Assembly (NCBI GenBank): GCA_030539055.1
Contig: JAUNSV010000001.1
Span: 1-64,000 of the forward strand
Reading direction: 5' to 3'
Source of the DNA: Eubacteriales bacterium
GTDB lineage: Bacteria; Bacillota; Clostridia; Lachnospirales; Lachnospiraceae
Length of the DNA stretch: 64,000 nt
The notes under the pieces are model-generated. The model did not search any database and was not told the origin of the DNA. It saw only the letters and a list, made by a program, of their open reading frames with translations. The translations under genes were made by a program, and so were the position numbers. Position 1 is the stretch's first letter; every line of letters starts with the position of its first letter. Positions 9,837 to 19,706 of this stretch are shown one piece after another.

Positions 9837-11438
9837 TTAATTATAATTATCTGGTAAATCATTCTCTAGTAGCACACATTTATGTTTAGTGCTTTGTAAT
9901 TTTCTTGCAAAATAAATTGCATCTTGAACTTTTGAAAAAGAATGTACTTTTTCTTTATCAAATTTTGTTTTATAAATTTCATCTTTAATTCTATGTGTAT
10001 TTTTTTCACCTACTAGTAATATATAATCACAAATATTAATCATTTGTTTAGCAAAATTTCTATTTAACTCATCTTCTTTTTCACCCAGCTCTACCATCCC
10101 TGGTGTGATACATATTTTTGTAGAAGTATCAAAAAGTGATAATACATGTAAAGCTTCCTCGGCACCAACTGGATTTGAATTATAAGCATCATCAATAAAT
10201 GATAACTCTTTATTTTCTTTCAATAATTCTAATCTGTGCTTTACTGGTTTTATTCGTTTTACACTTAAAATAATATCATCATAATTCATACCTAGCATTT
10301 TTGAGAAAGCAATAGAAGAAATTAAATTCAATATATTATTGTTCCCAAGTAAAATTGTATGAAAAGATATTGCTTTATTATCATTTTTATCTACGAATGT
10401 AAAACTAGTTCCCTCGCTTGTTGTATAAATATTTTTAGCATAATAATCGTTATTTGTATTTAGCCCAAAAGTTTTTATATTATTATTTATTCTTTCTTTT
10501 ATATATTCATTGTCGCCATTTACAAGTATTTTTGCTTCTTTATTATTAGAGTTAATATAGTCTACTAATTCAAATTTTGTAGATAAAATATTTTGTGTGT
10601 TTTTAAATGTATCTAAATGTTGCGGACCTATAGATGTAATTATGCAAGAAGTAGGACTTACTATATCACATATTTCTTTTATATCTCCAACTCTTCTTGC
10701 TCCCATTTCGCAAATGAAAATTTCATCAATCGATCTTAAATTTTCTCTAATAGCTTTTACTATTCCCATTGGAGTGTTGAAACTTGATGGAGTAATAAGA
10801 ACATTAAATTTTTCATTTAATATTTCACTTAAAAAATATTTTGTACTTGTTTTTCCATAAGAACCTGTTATACCAATTACTTCCAAATTGTTCATTGATA
10901 ATAGCTTATTTTTTGCTTCTTTTATATATTTATTTCTACTTATTTTTTCTATTGGCGAATTAATATAATTTGATATTTGAACTACTAAAGGCATTATAGA
11001 ACAAAATAAAATTGGTAAAAACAGTGATTTGTATTTTAATAATAATGCTATCTCTTCTCTATTATAAATAATATAAAAAACAGGTACAAAGCTTAATAAA
11101 GTAATAATAAAAATTGTAAAAAATAATCTAAATACTCTATTTGTATATACTAAAGGTTTTATCATCTTCCTTGGTAAATTTTCTATTAGTATAATTAATA
11201 AAAATATTAATTGAAAAATGCAAATAAGACTTAAATAAATATTAAAAGAATTAAAAAATAATACAATTAATGAAGATAATAATAAGAAAAAATTAATAAT
11301 AAAATCTTTAATATGTTTTTTTAAATAAAATGCATGTGAATCAAAATTATATGAATTTAATTGAAGCATATGCACTTGTCTAAAAATTTGCAAAATGTCA
11401 ATAATAAAAATTCCAATAGCAAAATTTATAATAGTCAT
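9837..11438 (-). CDS. murF: MurF-like Mur ligase with an N-terminal membrane domain
   Basis: Probably adds D-Ala-D-Ala to UDP-MurNAc-tripeptide. The first ~160 of 533 residues are hydrophobic, with about four membrane helices (roughly 1-18, 45-85, 105-125 and 140-155). The Mur ligase follows: P-loop GITGSYGKTS (189-198), EMGARRVGDI, ITSIGPQHLDTF, KHRLELL and the MurF-type signature FIDDAYNSNPVGAEEAL. An AAAGGAAAA site precedes the ATG. Its position next to ddl supports the MurF assignment. Ordinary MurF proteins are soluble and ~450 residues long, so the membrane domain is the unusual part. Confidence 0.9.
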   Translation of the reverse strand: MTIINFAIGIFIIDILQIFRQVHMLQLNSYNFDSHAFYLKKHIKDFIINFFLLLSSLIVLFFNSFNIYLSLICIFQLIFLLIILIENLPRKMIKPLVYTNRVFRLFFTIFIITLLSFVPVFYIIYNREEIALLLKYKSLFLPILFCSIMPLVVQISNYINSPIEKISRNKYIKEAKNKLLSMNNLEVIGITGSYGKTSTKYFLSEILNEKFNVLITPSSFNTPMGIVKAIRENLRSIDEIFICEMGARRVGDIKEICDIVSPTSCIITSIGPQHLDTFKNTQNILSTKFELVDYINSNNKEAKILVNGDNEYIKERINNNIKTFGLNTNNDYYAKNIYTTSEGTSFTFVDKNDNKAISFHTILLGNNNILNLISSIAFSKMLGMNYDDIILSVKRIKPVKHRLELLKENKELSFIDDAYNSNPVGAEEALHVLSLFDTSTKICITPGMVELGEKEDELNRNFAKQMINICDYILLVGEKNTHRIKDEIYKTKFDKEKVHSFSKVQDAIYFARKLQSTKHKCVLLENDLPDNYN

Positions 11439-12228: not shown

Positions 12229-12714
12229 TTATATATTTATTTGTATAATCTTATTTGATAAATTATATTTTTTACATAATACATTTGCTGCTTCAAACAT
12301 TCTTTTTGATGATTTTACTTCTGGAGTATTGGCATACTTATCTTCTATGTATATTACTTCTTTTATTCCTGATTGAATTATTGCTTTTGCACACTCATTG
12401 CATGGAAAAAGAGAAACATATAATTTAGCATTTTCTAAAGTGTTTCCTCGAAAATTTAATATAGCATTCAATTCGGCATGTGCTACATAATTATATTTTG
12501 TATCATAAGAAGAATCACCCTCTCTCTCCCATGGAAATTCATCATCATTGCATCCCTTAGGAAAACCATTGTATCCTAGTGATAAAATTTTATTTTCATT
12601 TGATACTATGCAGGCTCCTACTTGAGTGTTTGGATCTTTTGATCTTTTTGCACTAAGAAGTGCTATACCCATAAAATATTCATCCCAAGAAATATAATCA
12701 TCTCTTTTACTCAT
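12229..12714 (-). CDS. dCMP deaminase (ComEB-like)
   Basis: Zinc-dependent deamination of dCMP to dUMP, feeding thymidylate synthesis. I prefer the ATG at 12714, placed after GGAGGAATTA; the ATG four codons upstream overlaps that site. The 161-residue protein has the zinc and catalytic motif HAE at 79-81 and PCNEC with Cys105 and Cys108. The FPKGCNDDEFPWEREG insert is typical of dCMP deaminases rather than tRNA or cytidine deaminases. Confidence 0.93.
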   Translation of the reverse strand: MSKRDDYISWDEYFMGIALLSAKRSKDPNTQVGACIVSNENKILSLGYNGFPKGCNDDEFPWEREGDSSYDTKYNYVAHAELNAILNFRGNTLENAKLYVSLFPCNECAKAIIQSGIKEVIYIEDKYANTPEVKSSKRMFEAANVLCKKYNLSNKIIQINI

Positions 12715-12731
12715 TAATTCCTCCATGATTA

Positions 12732-13286
12732 TTATATTTTAATATCTCCAATTCTTAATACTTTTACTTCATTATTACTTACATCAATAATAGTAGAAGC
12801 TTTTGTATGTATACAATCTCCTAAGTCCCATAGTGCTTCTATTTTTCCATATAAATTTTTTTTAACATCATTAGCATTCATACAAGGGCTCATACCAGAT
12901 ATATTGCAAGATGTAGAAAACAGAGGATATTGCAATTTATTTAACAATTCATTTAATTTTTCTTCTTTTGGAATACGCACTCCCAATGTTTTATCATTTG
13001 ATTTAAAAATTATTGTAAGTGCTCCTGGCCAATATTTTTTTATATACTCTTTTGATATTTCTGGAATACTAGATACATACTTTTTTAATTCATTTTCATT
13101 TTTAATAAATAAAATTAGTGGCTTGTTTTTATCTCTTCCTTTAATTTTGTAAATATTTTCTATGGCTTTTTTTGAAAAAGCATTACAAACTAGAGCGTAT
13201 ACAGTATCTGTCTTCAGTGCAAGTACTTTTTCTTCATTTAAAAAATCAATTACTTTATTTATTTCATCTTTTGAGAAAGTTTTCAT
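12732..13286 (-). CDS. tsaC: L-threonylcarbamoyladenylate synthase (YrdC/Sua5 domain)
   Basis: Makes threonylcarbamoyl-AMP from threonine, bicarbonate and ATP, the first step of the t6A37 modification of ANN-decoding tRNAs. The 184 residues cover only the YrdC domain, with ALKTDTVYAL, IKGRDKNKPL, KKYWPGALTIIF, GVRIP and FSTSCNISG. The C-terminal Sua5 domain of Bacillus YwlC is absent, so it is the short TsaC form. The partners tsaB and tsaD lie 10 kb away in a different operon. Confidence 0.93.
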   Translation of the reverse strand: MKTFSKDEINKVIDFLNEEKVLALKTDTVYALVCNAFSKKAIENIYKIKGRDKNKPLILFIKNENELKKYVSSIPEISKEYIKKYWPGALTIIFKSNDKTLGVRIPKEEKLNELLNKLQYPLFSTSCNISGMSPCMNANDVKKNLYGKIEALWDLGDCIHTKASTIIDVSNNEVKVLRIGDIKI

Positions 13287-13290
13287 TTTA

Positions 13291-14997
13291 TTAATTTAAA
13301 TCTATTAAAGAAAAAAATCCATCCATTTCCATTCCTAGTTTCCAAGCAGCTGTACCTGCTACATTTGCATTCTCAACTTCTTTCATTTTTGCATTTAATG
13401 ATTTAATATCTTCAACCCATACTTCAGTTTTTGTTCCGTTTTTTGTTTTAGAAGCATAATTATATGCTTCTATACTATCCCAAGTATACTCATCTAATTC
13501 TAGTAATTCTTTTTGTTCATCAAAAGCTTTAGCTCCCATTGATTTTGCACTTATTTTTCCATTACTATCTGTAGTCCATACTCTTGTATAAAATGGAAGA
13601 GCTATGACTAATCTATCATTGTCCATTTGAGATAAACTTAATTCAATTCCTCTTTTTACAAAATTTAATGAAGAAACAGGCCCAGAACTTCCACCATTTG
13701 ATGTATGCTCATCATATAGCATTAAAACCATATAATCTACTACTTTAGCTACATCACTAAAATGATATCTATCATTTTGTTCGCTTGGGATTGATTGACA
13801 AACAGAAATATATTTATTTATTTTTTTAAAAGCAATAGAACACTCTCTAATAAATTGTACATAATCATCTTGTGCTTCTCTTGAGATATCTTCTATATCT
13901 AAATTTATTCCATCTAGATTTAAATCATTAGCATATGATACTAGAGTATTTATTATTTTGCTCCTAGCATTATGACTTGAAAATAGTGTTTTTGTAATAA
14001 TATTCTCTATATCAAAATTATTGATTGTAGGCCAAATTTGTAATCCTCTTAAGTGAGCTTCTTCAACATAAGAATTATCTGCTAATGATATAATATTACC
14101 TTGATTATCTGCAATTTTGAACCAAGTAGGTGATAATACATTCACATTTTGCATATTTACTATTAATTTTTGTAAATCATCTTTGTTTGCTACTTTCCAT
14201 AATTGATGAAAAGCTATTAATACTTTTTTATCAAATGTTTTATAATTAATTTTTTCTTTAATAAATTCGCTCTTTGGTGTTTCTATATACTCTTCTTCCA
14301 TTTTTTTATTTCTAATATATCCTAGGAAGCCATCGGGAGTTTTTACTAGGCACCATTTGTTCATTTTATCCAATACTTTTACGATATCACCTTTATTAAG
14401 ATCAGATAAGATTGGGCTTTTATTGCCTCCTCTATATCTTGCTTTTTCATTTCCTTTTAATATAGCAAAACTTTCTTCTTCCCAATTGTCATATATAAAA
14501 ACTCTTTTATATGAATCTGTTTCATAAAAGTCATATCGAATATCACTTTTTTCTTTAATAAAACTTATAGAAATATATGGTTCATCTAACAATAATAAGC
14601 AGGGTTTATTTTTATAATAATCTCTTTCAGAAAAAGAATCTGTAGATTTTGCATTTGAATAAATTATGCTTTGTGTATCTGTTTCATAATAAAAAACATT
14701 ATTTAATACACTCTTTACAAAACTATATGGAAGATAAATTTCTTCATTTCTATAAATAGATACTACTTTTTTTATTTGATTTTCATTATCATTTTGTAGT
14801 GCTTGTTTTTTGTCATTATAATATACTATTACTTCATCATTTTTTGATCCAAAATATAAATCTAAACTCATTCTTTCATTAGTATATGAATATCTTTTAT
14901 ATAAAAAAATTGTCATAATAACAATAAATATCAAAAATATTGATAAAAATACTTTTAATAAATTGTTATTCTTTTTTTTCTTCCTAGATTTTTGCAT
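13291..14997 (-). CDS. Membrane-anchored SH3 and glycoside hydrolase 18 protein
   Basis: Probable cell-wall glycan hydrolase or wall-binding protein, 568 residues. A Lys-rich N-terminus precedes one membrane helix (12-32). Residues ~40-115 resemble a copper-amine-oxidase N-like repeat region, and ~190-235 form a bacterial SH3 domain (SDLNKGDIVKVLDKMNKWCLVKT). From ~255 to the end runs a GH18 barrel with the catalytic motif DGINLDIED, where Glu369 is the expected acid. The layout recalls spore-cortex YaaH-type proteins, but a transmembrane anchor replaces LysM. The start codon overlaps the upstream stop (TAATG). Confidence 0.87.
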   Translation of the reverse strand: MQKSRKKKKNNNLLKVFLSIFLIFIVIMTIFLYKRYSYTNERMSLDLYFGSKNDEVIVYYNDKKQALQNDNENQIKKVVSIYRNEEIYLPYSFVKSVLNNVFYYETDTQSIIYSNAKSTDSFSERDYYKNKPCLLLLDEPYISISFIKEKSDIRYDFYETDSYKRVFIYDNWEEESFAILKGNEKARYRGGNKSPILSDLNKGDIVKVLDKMNKWCLVKTPDGFLGYIRNKKMEEEYIETPKSEFIKEKINYKTFDKKVLIAFHQLWKVANKDDLQKLIVNMQNVNVLSPTWFKIADNQGNIISLADNSYVEEAHLRGLQIWPTINNFDIENIITKTLFSSHNARSKIINTLVSYANDLNLDGINLDIEDISREAQDDYVQFIRECSIAFKKINKYISVCQSIPSEQNDRYHFSDVAKVVDYMVLMLYDEHTSNGGSSGPVSSLNFVKRGIELSLSQMDNDRLVIALPFYTRVWTTDSNGKISAKSMGAKAFDEQKELLELDEYTWDSIEAYNYASKTKNGTKTEVWVEDIKSLNAKMKEVENANVAGTAAWKLGMEMDGFFSLIDLN

Positions 14998-16277
14998 TAT
15001 TCAGTTTTATCTCTGTATACACATAATCCTTTACATATTGTATATTTTATTTTTCCTTTTAAAGTAGTACCTATCAAAGGAGTATTTTTTGATTTTGATT
15101 CGAATTTGTCTTCTACAACCCATTGCTCTTCTGGATCAAAAATTGTAATATCTGCTCTGCCACCTATTTTTAATTCACCTGCATCAAGCGAATATAAATT
15201 AGCTGGGTTTAAACTAATTTTTGAAATAACTTCATTCCATGATAACAATCCTGGATCTACTAATTTTAGCCCACAAATTCCAAGCACAGTTTCTAGCCCT
15301 ATTGCACCACTTTGTGCCTCTCTTAATCTTAAACTTTTTTCTTCTTCGGTACAAGGAAAATGATTAGAAGAAATAATTTCTATAGTATTACTTTGCAAGC
15401 CCTCTATTAAAGCTTTTCTGTCTTGTTCTGTTCTTAGTGGTGGAAGTACTTTTGCAAGTGTTCCTTTTTTTTCTAGAGCTTTCTCTGTTAAAATAAGTGA
15501 TAGTGCTTGAACTTCTGCATGAATATCCAAATTCATAAGCCTAGCAATATTTATTATTTCTACAGATCTTTTTGTAGACAAATATGCTATATCTATTCTT
15601 GCATTTGTTTCTTTAGCAAGTTCAAAAATTTTTGCACAATCTAAATCTTCTGCTATAGAATTTGTAGCACCTACTTTTAATTTTTCAGATACTTTGCCCT
15701 CGTTTATGCCTCTCACTTTTACTTTATCTAAATCTTCCAAATATATTGCTACAGGCACTTGTAATTTTTTAGCAATTAATAAACCTTGCTTCAAGAGTTC
15801 TTTATCATCAATAGGTCTTAACCCATCTGAAAAACCAATTGCACCATGATTATATAAAAATCTTAAATCTGCTAAATATTCTCCAAGTCTTTCCTCGGAA
15901 AAAGCTCCAACTGGATAGATCCTTATTGGCATAATTTGCGAATACTTTTTTATATACTCAATTACATTTACTTGATCTGGAGATGGTTTATTCTCTGTAC
16001 CAAGGACAATAGATGTGTATCCTCCTTTTGCACTGCTTAAGCAACCAGATTTTAAATCTTCTCTTCCAACTAGACCAGGATCCATAAAATTTGCGTGTAA
16101 ATCTACAAAACCTGGAGATACTATCAAATTTGTTGCATCTATAACTTTTTGAGCTTCTGTTTCATCAATATTTTTTGATATATTTAATATTTTATCTTTT
16201 TCAAATAAAATATCTATTATCCCATCAAAATCATTTGCAGGATTAATTACTCTTCCACCCTTAATTAGTACTTTCAT
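14997..16277 (-). CDS. Dihydroorotase-like amidohydrolase lacking metal ligands (probably non-catalytic)
   Basis: The 426-residue protein aligns end to end with type I dihydroorotases: DLHANFMDPGLVGRED, IGFSDGLRPI, the LPPLRTEQD segment, and a C-terminus with GRADITIFDP and KSKNTPLIGTTLKG. The catalytic residues are largely gone. The HxH pair is His61/Asn63; the His of HCEE-type motifs is Tyr179; the His of CHVST is Tyr232; the TPHH motif reads VQALS; and the Asp of ATDHAPHT is Asn305. Only His61 and Asp151 seem kept. Inactive homologues are known elsewhere as structural partners of aspartate carbamoyltransferase, but no pyrB is nearby. An AAGGAGG site precedes the ATG. Confidence 0.88.
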   Translation of the reverse strand: MKVLIKGGRVINPANDFDGIIDILFEKDKILNISKNIDETEAQKVIDATNLIVSPGFVDLHANFMDPGLVGREDLKSGCLSSAKGGYTSIVLGTENKPSPDQVNVIEYIKKYSQIMPIRIYPVGAFSEERLGEYLADLRFLYNHGAIGFSDGLRPIDDKELLKQGLLIAKKLQVPVAIYLEDLDKVKVRGINEGKVSEKLKVGATNSIAEDLDCAKIFELAKETNARIDIAYLSTKRSVEIINIARLMNLDIHAEVQALSLILTEKALEKKGTLAKVLPPLRTEQDRKALIEGLQSNTIEIISSNHFPCTEEEKSLRLREAQSGAIGLETVLGICGLKLVDPGLLSWNEVISKISLNPANLYSLDAGELKIGGRADITIFDPEEQWVVEDKFESKSKNTPLIGTTLKGKIKYTICKGLCVYRDKTE

Positions 16278-17438
16278 TTAAGCCTCCTTAGTGTAATTAA
16301 TGACTACTTCTTTCATGGCTTCAGCATACACTTTGGATTTTAGTACTTCGCTTTCCACATAATCCTCTCCTGCTTGCTTTTTTAATGTATCTAATGTTAT
16401 TGAATCTCCGTAATCATAAGCATTTGACATTTGTTCAAACCATATTCTTTCATCATCTTTAGAAATAGTAATTCCAAATTGTTTTTTTAATTCATCTAGC
16501 ATCATCGTATTCTTTATTTGACTAGCAGCATATTCTTTCATTGAATTAACATACTCTATAGCATTCATACCATAGTCTTTTATCATTTGTGAAAACTCTT
16601 TTTCATATTGATAAGCATTCACTCTATCTTTATATACCAATTGAACAAATTGCCAAGCTAGGGCTTCTTTTGTTGGTTCAAAAGTTGAACCCTCCAATAT
16701 CGCTTGTTCAATTTGATATTGTGCAGAATAATTGTTCATATATTCTCTTTGATTTTTAATATTGTTTTTGATTTCTTTTTCAAAAGCAATTGATGAAGAT
16801 GATTTTGATTTTGAATTTTTATAACGAAAAGCATCATCATACTCTGGTATAATACTTTCTGCTAGGTAATTTATTGTAACAGAAAACTTTGCTCTCTTTC
16901 CTTTTAAATCAGTGCTATAATAATCATTTGGAAAAGTGACATATATATCATATTTTTTTCCTATTTCTTTTCCTATAAGCTGGCTTTCAAATCCACTTAC
17001 AAATGTATTTGAACCAATAGTCAAATCATACCCTTGACCTCTTCCACCAGTAAATTCTTCTCCATTAACTGTGCCCACATAATCTATATTTACTATATCT
17101 CCATCTTTAATATCTTTTCTATTTGGAGTTCGTTTTTCTTTTTGATTATTTCTCATCATTTCTATTTCTTTATCTACTTCTTCTTTTGTAACTTCTTCGT
17201 ATGCTGTTATAGAAACTGTAACTCTCTTTAAATCAATAATACTTGTAGTGCCAAGATATTTAGGCTTCTTTGGAATTGTAGTTTTTTCTAATACTTCAAA
17301 TATTTCTGAATCTGTAGACAAATAGTCTAATACATCATACCCTGTATTTATCATCATCTCTCTATTTTGATTAGTACAAGCTTGAAGTGAACTAAGCACT
17401 AGTGAAACAATTAATAATGATGCTAATTTCTTTCTCAT
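16278..17438 (-). CDS. Trigger-factor-like FKBP peptidyl-prolyl isomerase lipoprotein
   Basis: Probable extracytoplasmic folding factor, 386 residues. The N-terminus is a lipoprotein signal with the box SSLQAC (Cys21). An FKBP-type domain spans roughly 95-190 (DGDIVNIDYVGTVNGEEF, GSNTFVSGFESQLIGKEIG), followed by a long helical C-terminal part like that of trigger factor. The ribosome-binding N-terminal domain of cytoplasmic trigger factor is missing, so it most likely acts at the outer membrane face. It overlaps the M18 aminopeptidase gene by four bases (ATGA). Co-transcription with signal peptidase I fits a role in secreted-protein maturation. Confidence 0.87.
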   Translation of the reverse strand: MRKKLASLLIVSLVLSSLQACTNQNREMMINTGYDVLDYLSTDSEIFEVLEKTTIPKKPKYLGTTSIIDLKRVTVSITAYEEVTKEEVDKEIEMMRNNQKEKRTPNRKDIKDGDIVNIDYVGTVNGEEFTGGRGQGYDLTIGSNTFVSGFESQLIGKEIGKKYDIYVTFPNDYYSTDLKGKRAKFSVTINYLAESIIPEYDDAFRYKNSKSKSSSSIAFEKEIKNNIKNQREYMNNYSAQYQIEQAILEGSTFEPTKEALAWQFVQLVYKDRVNAYQYEKEFSQMIKDYGMNAIEYVNSMKEYAASQIKNTMMLDELKKQFGITISKDDERIWFEQMSNAYDYGDSITLDTLKKQAGEDYVESEVLKSKVYAEAMKEVVINYTKEA

Positions 17439-18832
17439 CTTTTTTCTCTCCTAAGTAATGCTTTATATGCTAAATATGTACTATATATATCTAATTTGCT
17501 TGTTATTTCAAAAGGTGAGTGCATAGATAAAACTGGAACTCCAATATCTACAGTATCTATATTCCTTTGCGATACAAATTTTGCAATTGTGCCACCACCA
17601 CCTATATCCACTTTGCCAAGTTCTGCTACTTGAAAAGGAACTTTGCTTTCATCTAGTATTCTTATTGTTTCATTCATTGTTTCAGCTGAAGCATCTTGAG
17701 CACCTGATTTGCCTCTTGAACCAGTATATTTGCAAATAGTAACACCATGATTTAGGAGAGAGGCATTCCTTTCTTCAAAAACATCTGCAAATGTTGGGTC
17801 ATATGCTGCATTTACATCAGAAGAAAAACAAAGCGAATTTTTATATACATCTCTAGCTTTTATATTATAATAATCACAAATATCTTCGAATAAATCAAAA
17901 ACATAATTTGACACCATACCAGTATTACCCTCTGAACCTATTTCCTCTTTGTCTGTAAGAACTGTCATAGATGTTAATGAAGGATTATTACATTCTGTTT
18001 CTGCAATAAAAGCTGGATATGCACATACTCTGTCATCTTGAGCATAAGCTCCCACCATTGATCTATCAAATCCTATATCACTTGGGTTTAAAGCTGGTGT
18101 GATTTCTATTTCACATCTCAAAAAATCTTTTTCATTTATTCCATATTGTTCATTTAATAAATATAAAATTTTATGTTTTACAAAATTTTTTATATTTTTT
18201 TCTTTTAAAATATCTTTATCTACAAAAGGAATCGAACCAATAATTACATTTAATTCTTCCCCTTTAATAACATCTTTTAATGTTCGTTTATTTTGTTCAT
18301 CTGAAAGGTGAGGAAGTAAATCTGTTATTACAAATTGTGTATCACTTTCTTTTTCTCCAATATTTAGTTTTAATTCTTTTCCATTTGAGAGAAATATTAC
18401 TCCATGAAGAGAAAGTGGTATTGTTACCCATTGATATTTTTTTATTCCACCATAATAATGTGTTTTTAAAAATGCTATCTCTGAATTTTCATACATAGGG
18501 TTTGGCTTTAAATCTAATCTTGGTGAATCTATGTGTGCTATAGAGAAATTAATTCCTTTATCTATTTTTTCACTTCCTATTGTGAAAAGTGCAATTGCTT
18601 TACCTCTATTATTATAATAATATTTATTGCCACTTTCCAATTTAGTAGTATTTTTATTATACTCTTTATACCCTTTTTTTATAGCTTCATCAATAAAAAA
18701 ATCTACACATTCTCTTTCTGTTTTGCATTTTTTCATAAATTTTTTATAATCTTCACAAAAATCATATGCTTTGTTTAGCATACTTTTATCTAGTTCCATA
18801 ATATGTTTTGTTTCATATTCAAATTGTTCCAT
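17435..18832 (-). CDS. M18-family aminopeptidase
   Basis: Cytosolic metallo-aminopeptidase of the aspartyl-aminopeptidase family. I start it at the ATG at 18832, preceded by GGAGGACATA, giving 465 residues; an ATG four codons upstream overlaps that site. Expected metal and catalytic residues are visible in AHIDSPRLDL, YAQDDRVCAY, TDKEEIGSEG, SSDVNAAYDP and the terminal SMHSPFE. Length and motifs match clostridial M18 aminopeptidase 1. It lies between signal peptidase I and the trigger-factor-like lipoprotein. Confidence 0.93.
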   Translation of the reverse strand: MEQFEYETKHIMELDKSMLNKAYDFCEDYKKFMKKCKTERECVDFFIDEAIKKGYKEYNKNTTKLESGNKYYYNNRGKAIALFTIGSEKIDKGINFSIAHIDSPRLDLKPNPMYENSEIAFLKTHYYGGIKKYQWVTIPLSLHGVIFLSNGKELKLNIGEKESDTQFVITDLLPHLSDEQNKRTLKDVIKGEELNVIIGSIPFVDKDILKEKNIKNFVKHKILYLLNEQYGINEKDFLRCEIEITPALNPSDIGFDRSMVGAYAQDDRVCAYPAFIAETECNNPSLTSMTVLTDKEEIGSEGNTGMVSNYVFDLFEDICDYYNIKARDVYKNSLCFSSDVNAAYDPTFADVFEERNASLLNHGVTICKYTGSRGKSGAQDASAETMNETIRILDESKVPFQVAELGKVDIGGGGTIAKFVSQRNIDTVDIGVPVLSMHSPFEITSKLDIYSTYLAYKALLRREKR

Positions 18833-18848
18833 TATGTCCTCCAAATTA

Positions 18849-19706
18849 TTATTTTACTAATCCAAATTTATATATAGGCCAATATACGAAGCCTGCTTTT
18901 GCTATTATATCTTTTTTTGCTACAAACATTTGATTCCAAAACCTTGCATCCTCTGAATTATTTCTATTGTCGCCCATAAGAAAGTATCCATCTTCTGGTA
19001 CAGTAAATTTGAAAGATTTGTAAAAATTATCATCCACAATCATTGGCTCATATATGTATGTCTCTTCTTGTTTTACGCCATTTATATATACATGCCCTGC
19101 TTTTACTGTACCATCAAATCTAAATTTTATTTCTTTAAAATCATTTGTATTCGCAAGATAATCATTTTTTATTTCTACAACATCTCCAGGAATTGCAATA
19201 CATCTTTTAATAAAATATGCTTTTGAATTATTTGTATTTTTTCTTCCACAATTTGGGCATACTTCATCAAAGTAATTATTTAATTCAGACAAGCTTGCTC
19301 TTACACTCTCGCTTAAGTATTCTAGGTGGTTTTTGTCTTTCTTTTGATACATATACCCACACTCTTTACATATGTAACCATAGTTTAAAACTACTATATC
19401 TCCTCTTTTAATATCACTTGAAATATATGCTAATCTAGATCCAAATAGCCTTGCTCCTATAGGTAGTGTGCTTATCATAGAACCAGTAGGTACATATGAA
19501 TTTGTTATCAAGAAAGAATTGCACAAAATTGCTACAATTGCTGCAACAACTACCATATATACCCAATCAAATACTGTTCTAAATGTATTTTTTCTTATAT
19601 CACTATTAGAGAAAATAGGTGTTTTTTCCTCTTTAATAACATTTTCTTCATTTGCATCCCAAGAAGAAATATTATTTTGTATATCTTTATTTTCTTCATT
19701 ATTCAT
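18849..19706 (-). CDS. lepB: Signal peptidase I with a zinc-ribbon-like insertion
   Basis: Cleaves signal peptides of secreted proteins. The 285-residue protein has one membrane helix (~47-69), catalytic Ser76 in VPTGSMISTL, catalytic Lys167 in FIKRCIAIPGD and the late motif GYFLMGDNRNNSEDARFW. Between the Ser and Lys boxes lies an insertion with two CxxC knuckles (Cys113/Cys116 and Cys150/Cys153), as in a zinc ribbon; standard enzymes lack it. No ribosome site precedes the ATG, and the promoter places the transcript start within a base or two of it. It heads the 11-gene run ending at engB. Confidence 0.93.
   Translation of the reverse strand: MNNEENKDIQNNISSWDANEENVIKEEKTPIFSNSDIRKNTFRTVFDWVYMVVVAAIVAILCNSFLITNSYVPTGSMISTLPIGARLFGSRLAYISSDIKRGDIVVLNYGYICKECGYMYQKKDKNHLEYLSESVRASLSELNNYFDEVCPNCGRKNTNNSKAYFIKRCIAIPGDVVEIKNDYLANTNDFKEIKFRFDGTVKAGHVYINGVKQEETYIYEPMIVDDNFYKSFKFTVPEDGYFLMGDNRNNSEDARFWNQMFVAKKDIIAKAGFVYWPIYKFGLVK

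Follow-up and report, generated by a model that had tools for sequence, protein, structure and literature searches.

The window analysed here is a stretch of 64,000 nucleotides, positions 1 to 64,000 of contig JAUNSV010000001.1 from a member of the Lachnospiraceae (Eubacteriales bacterium, assembly GCA_030539055.1). On its reverse strand, within a run of genes for signal peptidase I (LepB), an M18 aminopeptidase, an FKBP/trigger-factor-like foldase and a GH18 hydrolase, lies an open reading frame (ORF) for a dihydroorotase (DHO) homologue that we call psDHO, for metal-less DHO pseudoenzyme (coordinates of all features are given in Table 1). The ORF begins with ATG, has AGGAGG 5 bases upstream, and encodes 426 residues in which, as the initial annotation had stated, DHO length and order are kept. 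In a phmmer search the whole of psDHO aligned with the DHO of Aquifex aeolicus (3d6n), with a score of 289.1 bits and an E-value of 4.9e-85 (residues 1–423). The best DHO model scored 403.9 bits, while the dihydropyrimidinase model TIGR02033 gave 141.6 bits against a cut-off of 393.25. In the predicted single-chain model, the closest fold matches are structures of DHO bound to aspartate carbamoyltransferase (ATC; the enzyme is abbreviated ATCase below), and CRMP structures are also among the matches. By full-length homology and predicted fold, psDHO is a type I DHO; no signal peptide was seen by eye. It also scores just over the cut-off of the NCBIfam model TIGR00857 (284.8 versus 279.05 bits), so pipelines that rely on this model would probably label it as the enzyme.

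We first consider the metal and substrate sites, using Aquifex DHO numbering and adding psDHO numbers where they differ. Five of the six metal-site positions are replaced (H63N, D153G, H180Y, H232Y and D305N). Arg65, Asn95 and the TPHH motif, which we take to be substrate-binding elements of DHO, are lost as well, their places being taken by Met65, Glu95 and Q257-A-L-S260; this last motif is PALN-like in the other orthologues. The residues singled out in the initial annotation (His61, Asn63, Tyr179, Tyr232 and Asn305) and the loss of TPHH were all borne out by alignment, and the claim that most metal ligands are missing proved stronger than stated, since Aquifex Asp153 (FTDDG, second Asp) faces Gly152 of psDHO (FSDGL) in an ungapped stretch of the alignment, a loss that had gone unseen. 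According to excerpts of a study of Aquifex DHO (PMC3880350), zinc is held by His61, His63 and Asp153 with Asp305 near, His180 and His232 make up a second site, and the enzyme works with a single zinc, an H180A/H232A double mutant keeping activity. Loss of His180 and His232 was therefore rejected as proof of inactivity, and the argument rests on His63, Asp153 and Asp305. Because these three residues are lost along with Arg65 and TPHH, psDHO presumably cannot run the dihydroorotase reaction by the known mechanism.

Orthologues were found in 12 of 13 genomes of the genus, the window's own included, and the other 11 show 46–58% protein identity to the window. The five more complete genomes are G000, G040, G126, G129 and G131. 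The metal-site losses are common to all 12 proteins, in which only His61 is left of the zinc site; positions 180 and 232 differ between orthologues in what replaces the histidine. Every orthologue has His61 and His306, and 11 have Asp151, which is Glu in G131. These residues bear on the proposal that psDHO has an alternative metal site and is a working dihydroorotase or other cyclic amidohydrolase, which we regard as highly improbable: the invariant histidines, the near-invariant Asp151 and the single-zinc activity of Aquifex DHO without His180 and His232 (PMC3880350, in part) would fit it, but His63, Asp153, Asp305, Arg65 and TPHH are gone in all 12 orthologues, and the 13 genomes yielded no gene for ATCase, DHO dehydrogenase or orotate phosphoribosyltransferase at cut-off.

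For comparison we assembled 54 other DHO rows (61 best-match loci less 7 duplicates), 53 of which keep all six metal-site residues; the exception is L059. This locus (positions 10001–11269) encodes a DHO homologue of Marinobacterium ramblicola that is probably a PyrX. In a tree of the 66 rows, the 12 psDHO orthologues form one clade with support 100/100 on a stem of 1.53, placed within a 62-row group where family genomes interleave with Oribacterium and Mediterraneibacter of the Lachnospiraceae, from which the name of the family was deduced; the tree singles out no nearest sister. Descent from dihydropyrimidinase, as in CRMPs, is not what this tree shows, psDHO falling inside the DHO rows of a set that held no dihydropyrimidinase row. 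A psDHO profile run against 398 family genomes scored 680–800 bits in the three genus members sampled and at most 393 bits elsewhere, and among 391 class genomes at most 395 bits outside the genus (the eight outside loci, L142–L149, were compared by score alone). A wider spread of the pseudoenzyme was rejected on these scores. Since the orthologues make up one clade on a long stem, with nothing comparable outside the genus in the profile searches, psDHO probably had a single origin and a period of fast change followed by stability. Among the matches listed in the open-licence literature, none described such a protein in Lachnospiraceae.

None of the 12 reading frames contains an internal stop. 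In the 14 closest of 66 orthologue pairs, dN/dS is 0.04–0.16, values that are only approximate because dS exceeds 1 in all 14. psDHO is under purifying selection, and as a conserved homologue stripped of its catalytic residues it is a pseudoenzyme in the usual sense. Because the losses recur in 12 assemblies, in frames without internal stops and with low dN/dS, chance, sequencing error and plain decay are not credible. The idea of a decaying pyrC relic, persisting because its removal would upset GH18 translation, draws on the tight junctions with both neighbours and on the pathway genes not found; we give it very little credence in view of the intact frames, the dN/dS values and the fact that the replaced positions have been fixed anew.

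This re-fixation was assessed against 50 family-type DHO rows (L033, L058, L059 and L060 were left out). The baseline contains 104 positions that are at least 95% conserved, and 39 of them carry another majority residue in the psDHO clade; many of the 39 belong to active-site motifs, and at a good number of them 11 or all 12 orthologues agree on the new residue. Ten pocket positions (the site list less 151) have a mean conservation of 0.89 in the clade, compared with 0.745 overall, a level reached by 1.3% of 20,000 random position sets. As the pocket positions are re-fixed and more conserved than the clade average, the alignment suggests that the psDHO pocket has been rebuilt and is still used. 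Such a pocket, made up of His61, Asn63, Cys/Met65, Asp151, Tyr232, Asn305 and His306, might catalyse another reaction without metal. We consider a new enzyme of this kind unlikely: its positions do not drift and the pocket would be expected to persist with the DHO fold, but no invariant nucleophile–acid–base set is obvious (65 is Cys or Met, 179 Tyr or Phe, and G131 has Asn at 232 and Glu at 151), and no metabolic neighbour points to a substrate.

The initial annotation had noted no pyrB near the gene and had called for a search for a second, intact pyrC. The lack of pyrB holds for the genome and the genus at the curated cut-off (0/13), and neither type I nor type II searches revealed another pyrC in either. 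No genome exceeded the cut-off for pyrE (0/13; best 49.1 versus 106.8 bits, a G000 ORF that is apt) or pyrD (0/13; best 34.3 versus 270 bits, L101 of G130, which is DusB), and type II pyrC had no match at E 0.001 in any of the 13. The apt and DusB matches, far under the cut-offs, were rejected as pathway genes. The five more complete genomes agree on the missing pyrB, pyrD, pyrE and type II pyrC. In 14 named control genomes, cut-offs were passed by pyrB in 14, pyrE in 10, pyrD in 5 and type II pyrC in 1, so that the cut-offs other than that of pyrB are strict; pyrB was also present in all six family members tested from other genera. The uracil phosphoribosyltransferase gene upp was over its cut-off in 11 of the 13 genomes. 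A hidden second DHO was sought among 11 further type I matches, from genus members other than G000, and rejected: all were best matched by the dihydropyrimidinase/hydantoinase model TIGR02033, whose cut-off was passed by 10 (L080 included), the remaining one, L085, being a contig-end fragment that falls below it. Weaker DHO-like matches in G000 are HutI, a 472-residue hydantoinase and adenine deaminase. From the misses for pyrB, pyrE, pyrD and type II pyrC, and the hydantoinase-type nature of the remaining DHO-like ORFs, it appears that the genus is probably a pyrimidine auxotroph that keeps only this descendant of pyrC. Neither the loss of the other pathway genes nor the genus-wide scope of the change had been seen in the initial annotation. 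Mis-annotation of psDHO could therefore make these bacteria, which are probably auxotrophic for pyrimidines, look as if they had part of the missing pathway.

Inactive DHOs are already known from PyrX and Ura2; both serve an ATCase, which is missing here. PyrX, the pseudo-DHO of class A2 ATCases in Pseudomonas, is a full-length inactive homologue kept for non-catalytic work (PMC7053772), as psDHO probably is too. Like PyrX, psDHO is a DHO homologue without zinc ligands; unlike PyrX, it has no pyrB product with which to assemble (0/13 at cut-off, with 14/14 controls positive), so that it falls outside the PyrX class if having an ATCase as partner defines that class. The replacements differ too, the PyrX-like L059 having C61/H63/T153/Q180/Q232/D305 and the psDHO clade H61/N63/G153/Y or F180/Y or N232/N305. 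The pDHO domain of fungal Ura2-type carbamoyl-phosphate synthetase–ATCase shares with psDHO a DHO fold without zinc ligands and substrate residues (same source, in part), but it is a domain of a multifunctional ATCase polypeptide, whereas psDHO is a free-standing bacterial protein with no ATCase detected. Compared with Aquifex DHO (3d6n, 4bjh), psDHO lacks the metal and substrate site and no ATCase partner was found. CRMPs, which are related to dihydropyrimidinase, likewise have a cyclic-amidohydrolase fold with most metal residues lost; excerpts of PMC4051505 describe a kept cavity and a role outside nucleotide metabolism, CRMP-4 having two of six metal residues. CRMPs are animal proteins close to dihydropyrimidinase with a C-terminal tail, whereas psDHO is pyrC-derived and confined to one bacterial genus. 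Because there is apparently no ATCase for psDHO to serve, as the inactive DHOs of the cited papers do, its function must lie elsewhere.

The most concrete rival is that psDHO serves a replacement for the lost ATCase, as partner subunit of the knotted transcarbamylase YgeW, with DHO-fold dimers bridging transcarbamylase trimers in the manner of PyrX or Aquifex DHO with ATCase. ORFs of about 400 residues matching ATCase model positions 8–222 occur in 11 of the 13 genomes, with a fragment in G130 and none in G127; the only one named, in G000, is YgeW (747 bits against a TIGR03316 cut-off of 500). An inactive DHO as a transcarbamylase assembly subunit is documented in the passages of PMC7053772, and the psDHO model best matches ATC-bound DHO. 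We nevertheless judge this partnership rather improbable, as YgeW lies outside the psDHO operon (the G000 copy is on contig C40 beside ygeY), G047, whose DHO is intact, also has a YgeW-type match, and an excerpt of PMC4581275 describes the YgeW protein as a canonical trimer. G000 contains a purine and amino-acid catabolic set, with YgeW and YgeY on C40 (L042), HutI and the 472-residue hydantoinase on C69:64001–83000 (L048), and adenine deaminase on C81 (L049).

With regard to gene order, LepB, M18, the FKBP/trigger-factor-like lipoprotein, psDHO and GH18 follow one another on one strand at all 12 orthologue loci, which answers the survey of conserved order that had been proposed. TsaC comes directly after GH18 at 11 of them; in G129 the deaminase comes first. 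In the window the GH18 start codon overlaps the psDHO stop (TAATG) and the foldase stop codon directly precedes the psDHO start. At all 12 loci the open frame of psDHO overlaps or adjoins that of GH18 (for the relatives these are frames, GH18 start codons not being assigned), and the foldase–psDHO gap is at most about 20 bases in the printed junctions. Promoter and terminator scans returned sites no more frequently than in shuffled sequences. A GH18 homologue was present in 113 family genomes out of 121, the psDHO genus contributing two. None of 28 best-scoring GH18 loci of other genera has a DHO within its 1.5-kb flanks (a few flanks are cut by contig ends), and a position of pyrC beside GH18 as the ancestral state was rejected on this ground. 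TsaC is in the flank of 11 of the 28, on the GH18 strand in 10. GH18–TsaC seems to be the older unit and DHO a later arrival in this genus, as other genera have loci with TsaC and without DHO. The label "envelope/secretion operon" is apt for LepB, the foldase lipoprotein and the membrane-anchored GH18; it does not cover M18, TsaC and the dCMP/ComEB-type deaminase, which are also present. As judged by eye, psDHO lacks a signal peptide, whereas the N termini of the foldase and of GH18 would target these proteins to the membrane; direct scaffolding of their extracytoplasmic domains by psDHO is therefore unlikely.

The explanation that we prefer, with a probability of roughly 0.6 for the whole, is that psDHO is the genus's own pyrC by descent: as the uridine monophosphate (UMP) pathway disappeared, it turned into a metal-free pseudoenzyme, retained for binding or assembly without catalysis. 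The genus is low in GC and of Lachnospiraceae type; its ancestor would have lost the de novo pathway, one pyrC would have lost its metal and substrate sites along the single long stem, and the altered gene would have come to adjoin GH18. Judging from sequence and prediction, psDHO would since have been kept by purifying selection as a cytosolic, metal-free protein of DHO fold. Its work would resemble that of CRMPs and PyrX, a small ligand or a partner protein being bound by what was once the active-site pocket, by the dimer surface of the DHO fold, or by both, and it would be made in step with LepB, M18, the foldase and GH18 through a tightly packed operon, in which translational coupling is presumed from the observed gene order. 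The residue losses, the orthology, the single clade, purifying selection and the gene order are observed, the fold is predicted, and searches support the lack of pathway genes; what we infer is lack of activity, auxotrophy, co-translation and a binding or assembly role. The earlier suggestion of a repurposed protein holds in that selection maintains a DHO homologue that has no metal site and whose use is not the dihydroorotase reaction. It shows cleanly, in nature, how an enzyme can outlive its pathway as a pseudoenzyme, with one origin, 12 diverged orthologues and the missing pathway genes documented. A more specific form, which we hold to be possible though doubtful, is a pocket protein free of metal, which would sense a small molecule (e.g. 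a pyrimidine from salvage) or dock with a new partner, tying the output of envelope and secretion genes to nutrient state as a bacterial counterpart of CRMPs without a transcarbamylase.

Several points weigh against the explanation that we prefer. psDHO may be a metal-independent enzyme that uses other residues, Aquifex DHO tolerates loss of His180 and His232 (PMC3880350, in part), and active-site positions are structurally sensitive too, so that their conservation is no proof of ligand binding. G130 (81% complete) yielded no psDHO, which could reflect an assembly gap or true loss, and eight of the 13 genomes are under 90% complete. Weak matches under the cut-offs exist for pyrE in 12 and for pyrD in all 13, one of each having been named. 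In the tree, five of the 12 psDHO rows are deviant in composition, and L074 (G131) and L059 have long branches; the dN/dS values are approximate, as stated.

Table 1. Features of the psDHO locus in window coordinates; residue positions in DHO follow Aquifex numbering.
Feature	Position	Strand	Basis
psDHO, metal-less dihydroorotase pseudoenzyme, 426 residues	14997..16277	-	ORF, DHO homology, orthologues, predicted fold
His61 codon, sole metal-site residue kept	16095..16097	-	alignment
Asn63 codon (zinc ligand His63 in DHO); Asn in 12/12 orthologues	16089..16091	-	
Met65 codon (Arg65 in DHO); Cys in the 11 other orthologues	16083..16085	-	
Glu95 codon (Asn95 in DHO); Asp in 10/12, Glu in 2/12	15993..15995	-	
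Gly152 codon (zinc ligand Asp153 in DHO); Gly in 12/12	15822..15824	-	
Tyr179 codon (His180 in DHO); Tyr in 5/12, Phe in 7/12	15741..15743	-	
Tyr232 codon (His232 in DHO); Tyr in 11/12, Asn in 1/12 (G131)	15582..15584	-	
Asn305 codon (Asp305 in DHO); Asn in 12/12	15363..15365	-	
Signal peptidase I (LepB), conserved neighbour	18849..19706	-	
M18 aminopeptidase, conserved neighbour	17435..18844	-	
Extracytoplasmic foldase: FKBP domain, C-terminal domain of trigger factor and, by eye, a lipoprotein-like N terminus	16278..17438	-	
GH18 hydrolase with SH3_3 domain and N-terminal membrane segment (by eye)	13291..14997	-	
TsaC/Sua5-type L-threonylcarbamoyladenylate synthase, next gene after GH18	12732..13286	-	
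dCMP/ComEB-type deaminase (86.5 bits to TIGR02571, whose cut-off is 219), conserved neighbour downstream of TsaC	12229..12726	-	

Some neighbouring genes have features of their own. The foldase is a relative of trigger factor without the N-terminal ribosome-binding part, TIGR00115 matching from profile position 107; by eye, its N terminus has a signal and what may be a lipobox Cys, as in an extracytoplasmic lipoprotein version of trigger factor. The deaminase is the best conserved neighbour, being 65–73% identical at the nine further loci of the genus that showed it, and its host genome seems to rely on salvage for pyrimidines. Among NCBIfam models it matches best one for an anti-phage dCTP deaminase, far under the cut-off. 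TsaC and the deaminase abut in the window and are separated by about 1.1 kb in eight genus members. In G121 (L107, 13436–14623, plus strand), an ORF of about 396 residues with no NCBIfam match at E 1e-20 lies between the two genes.

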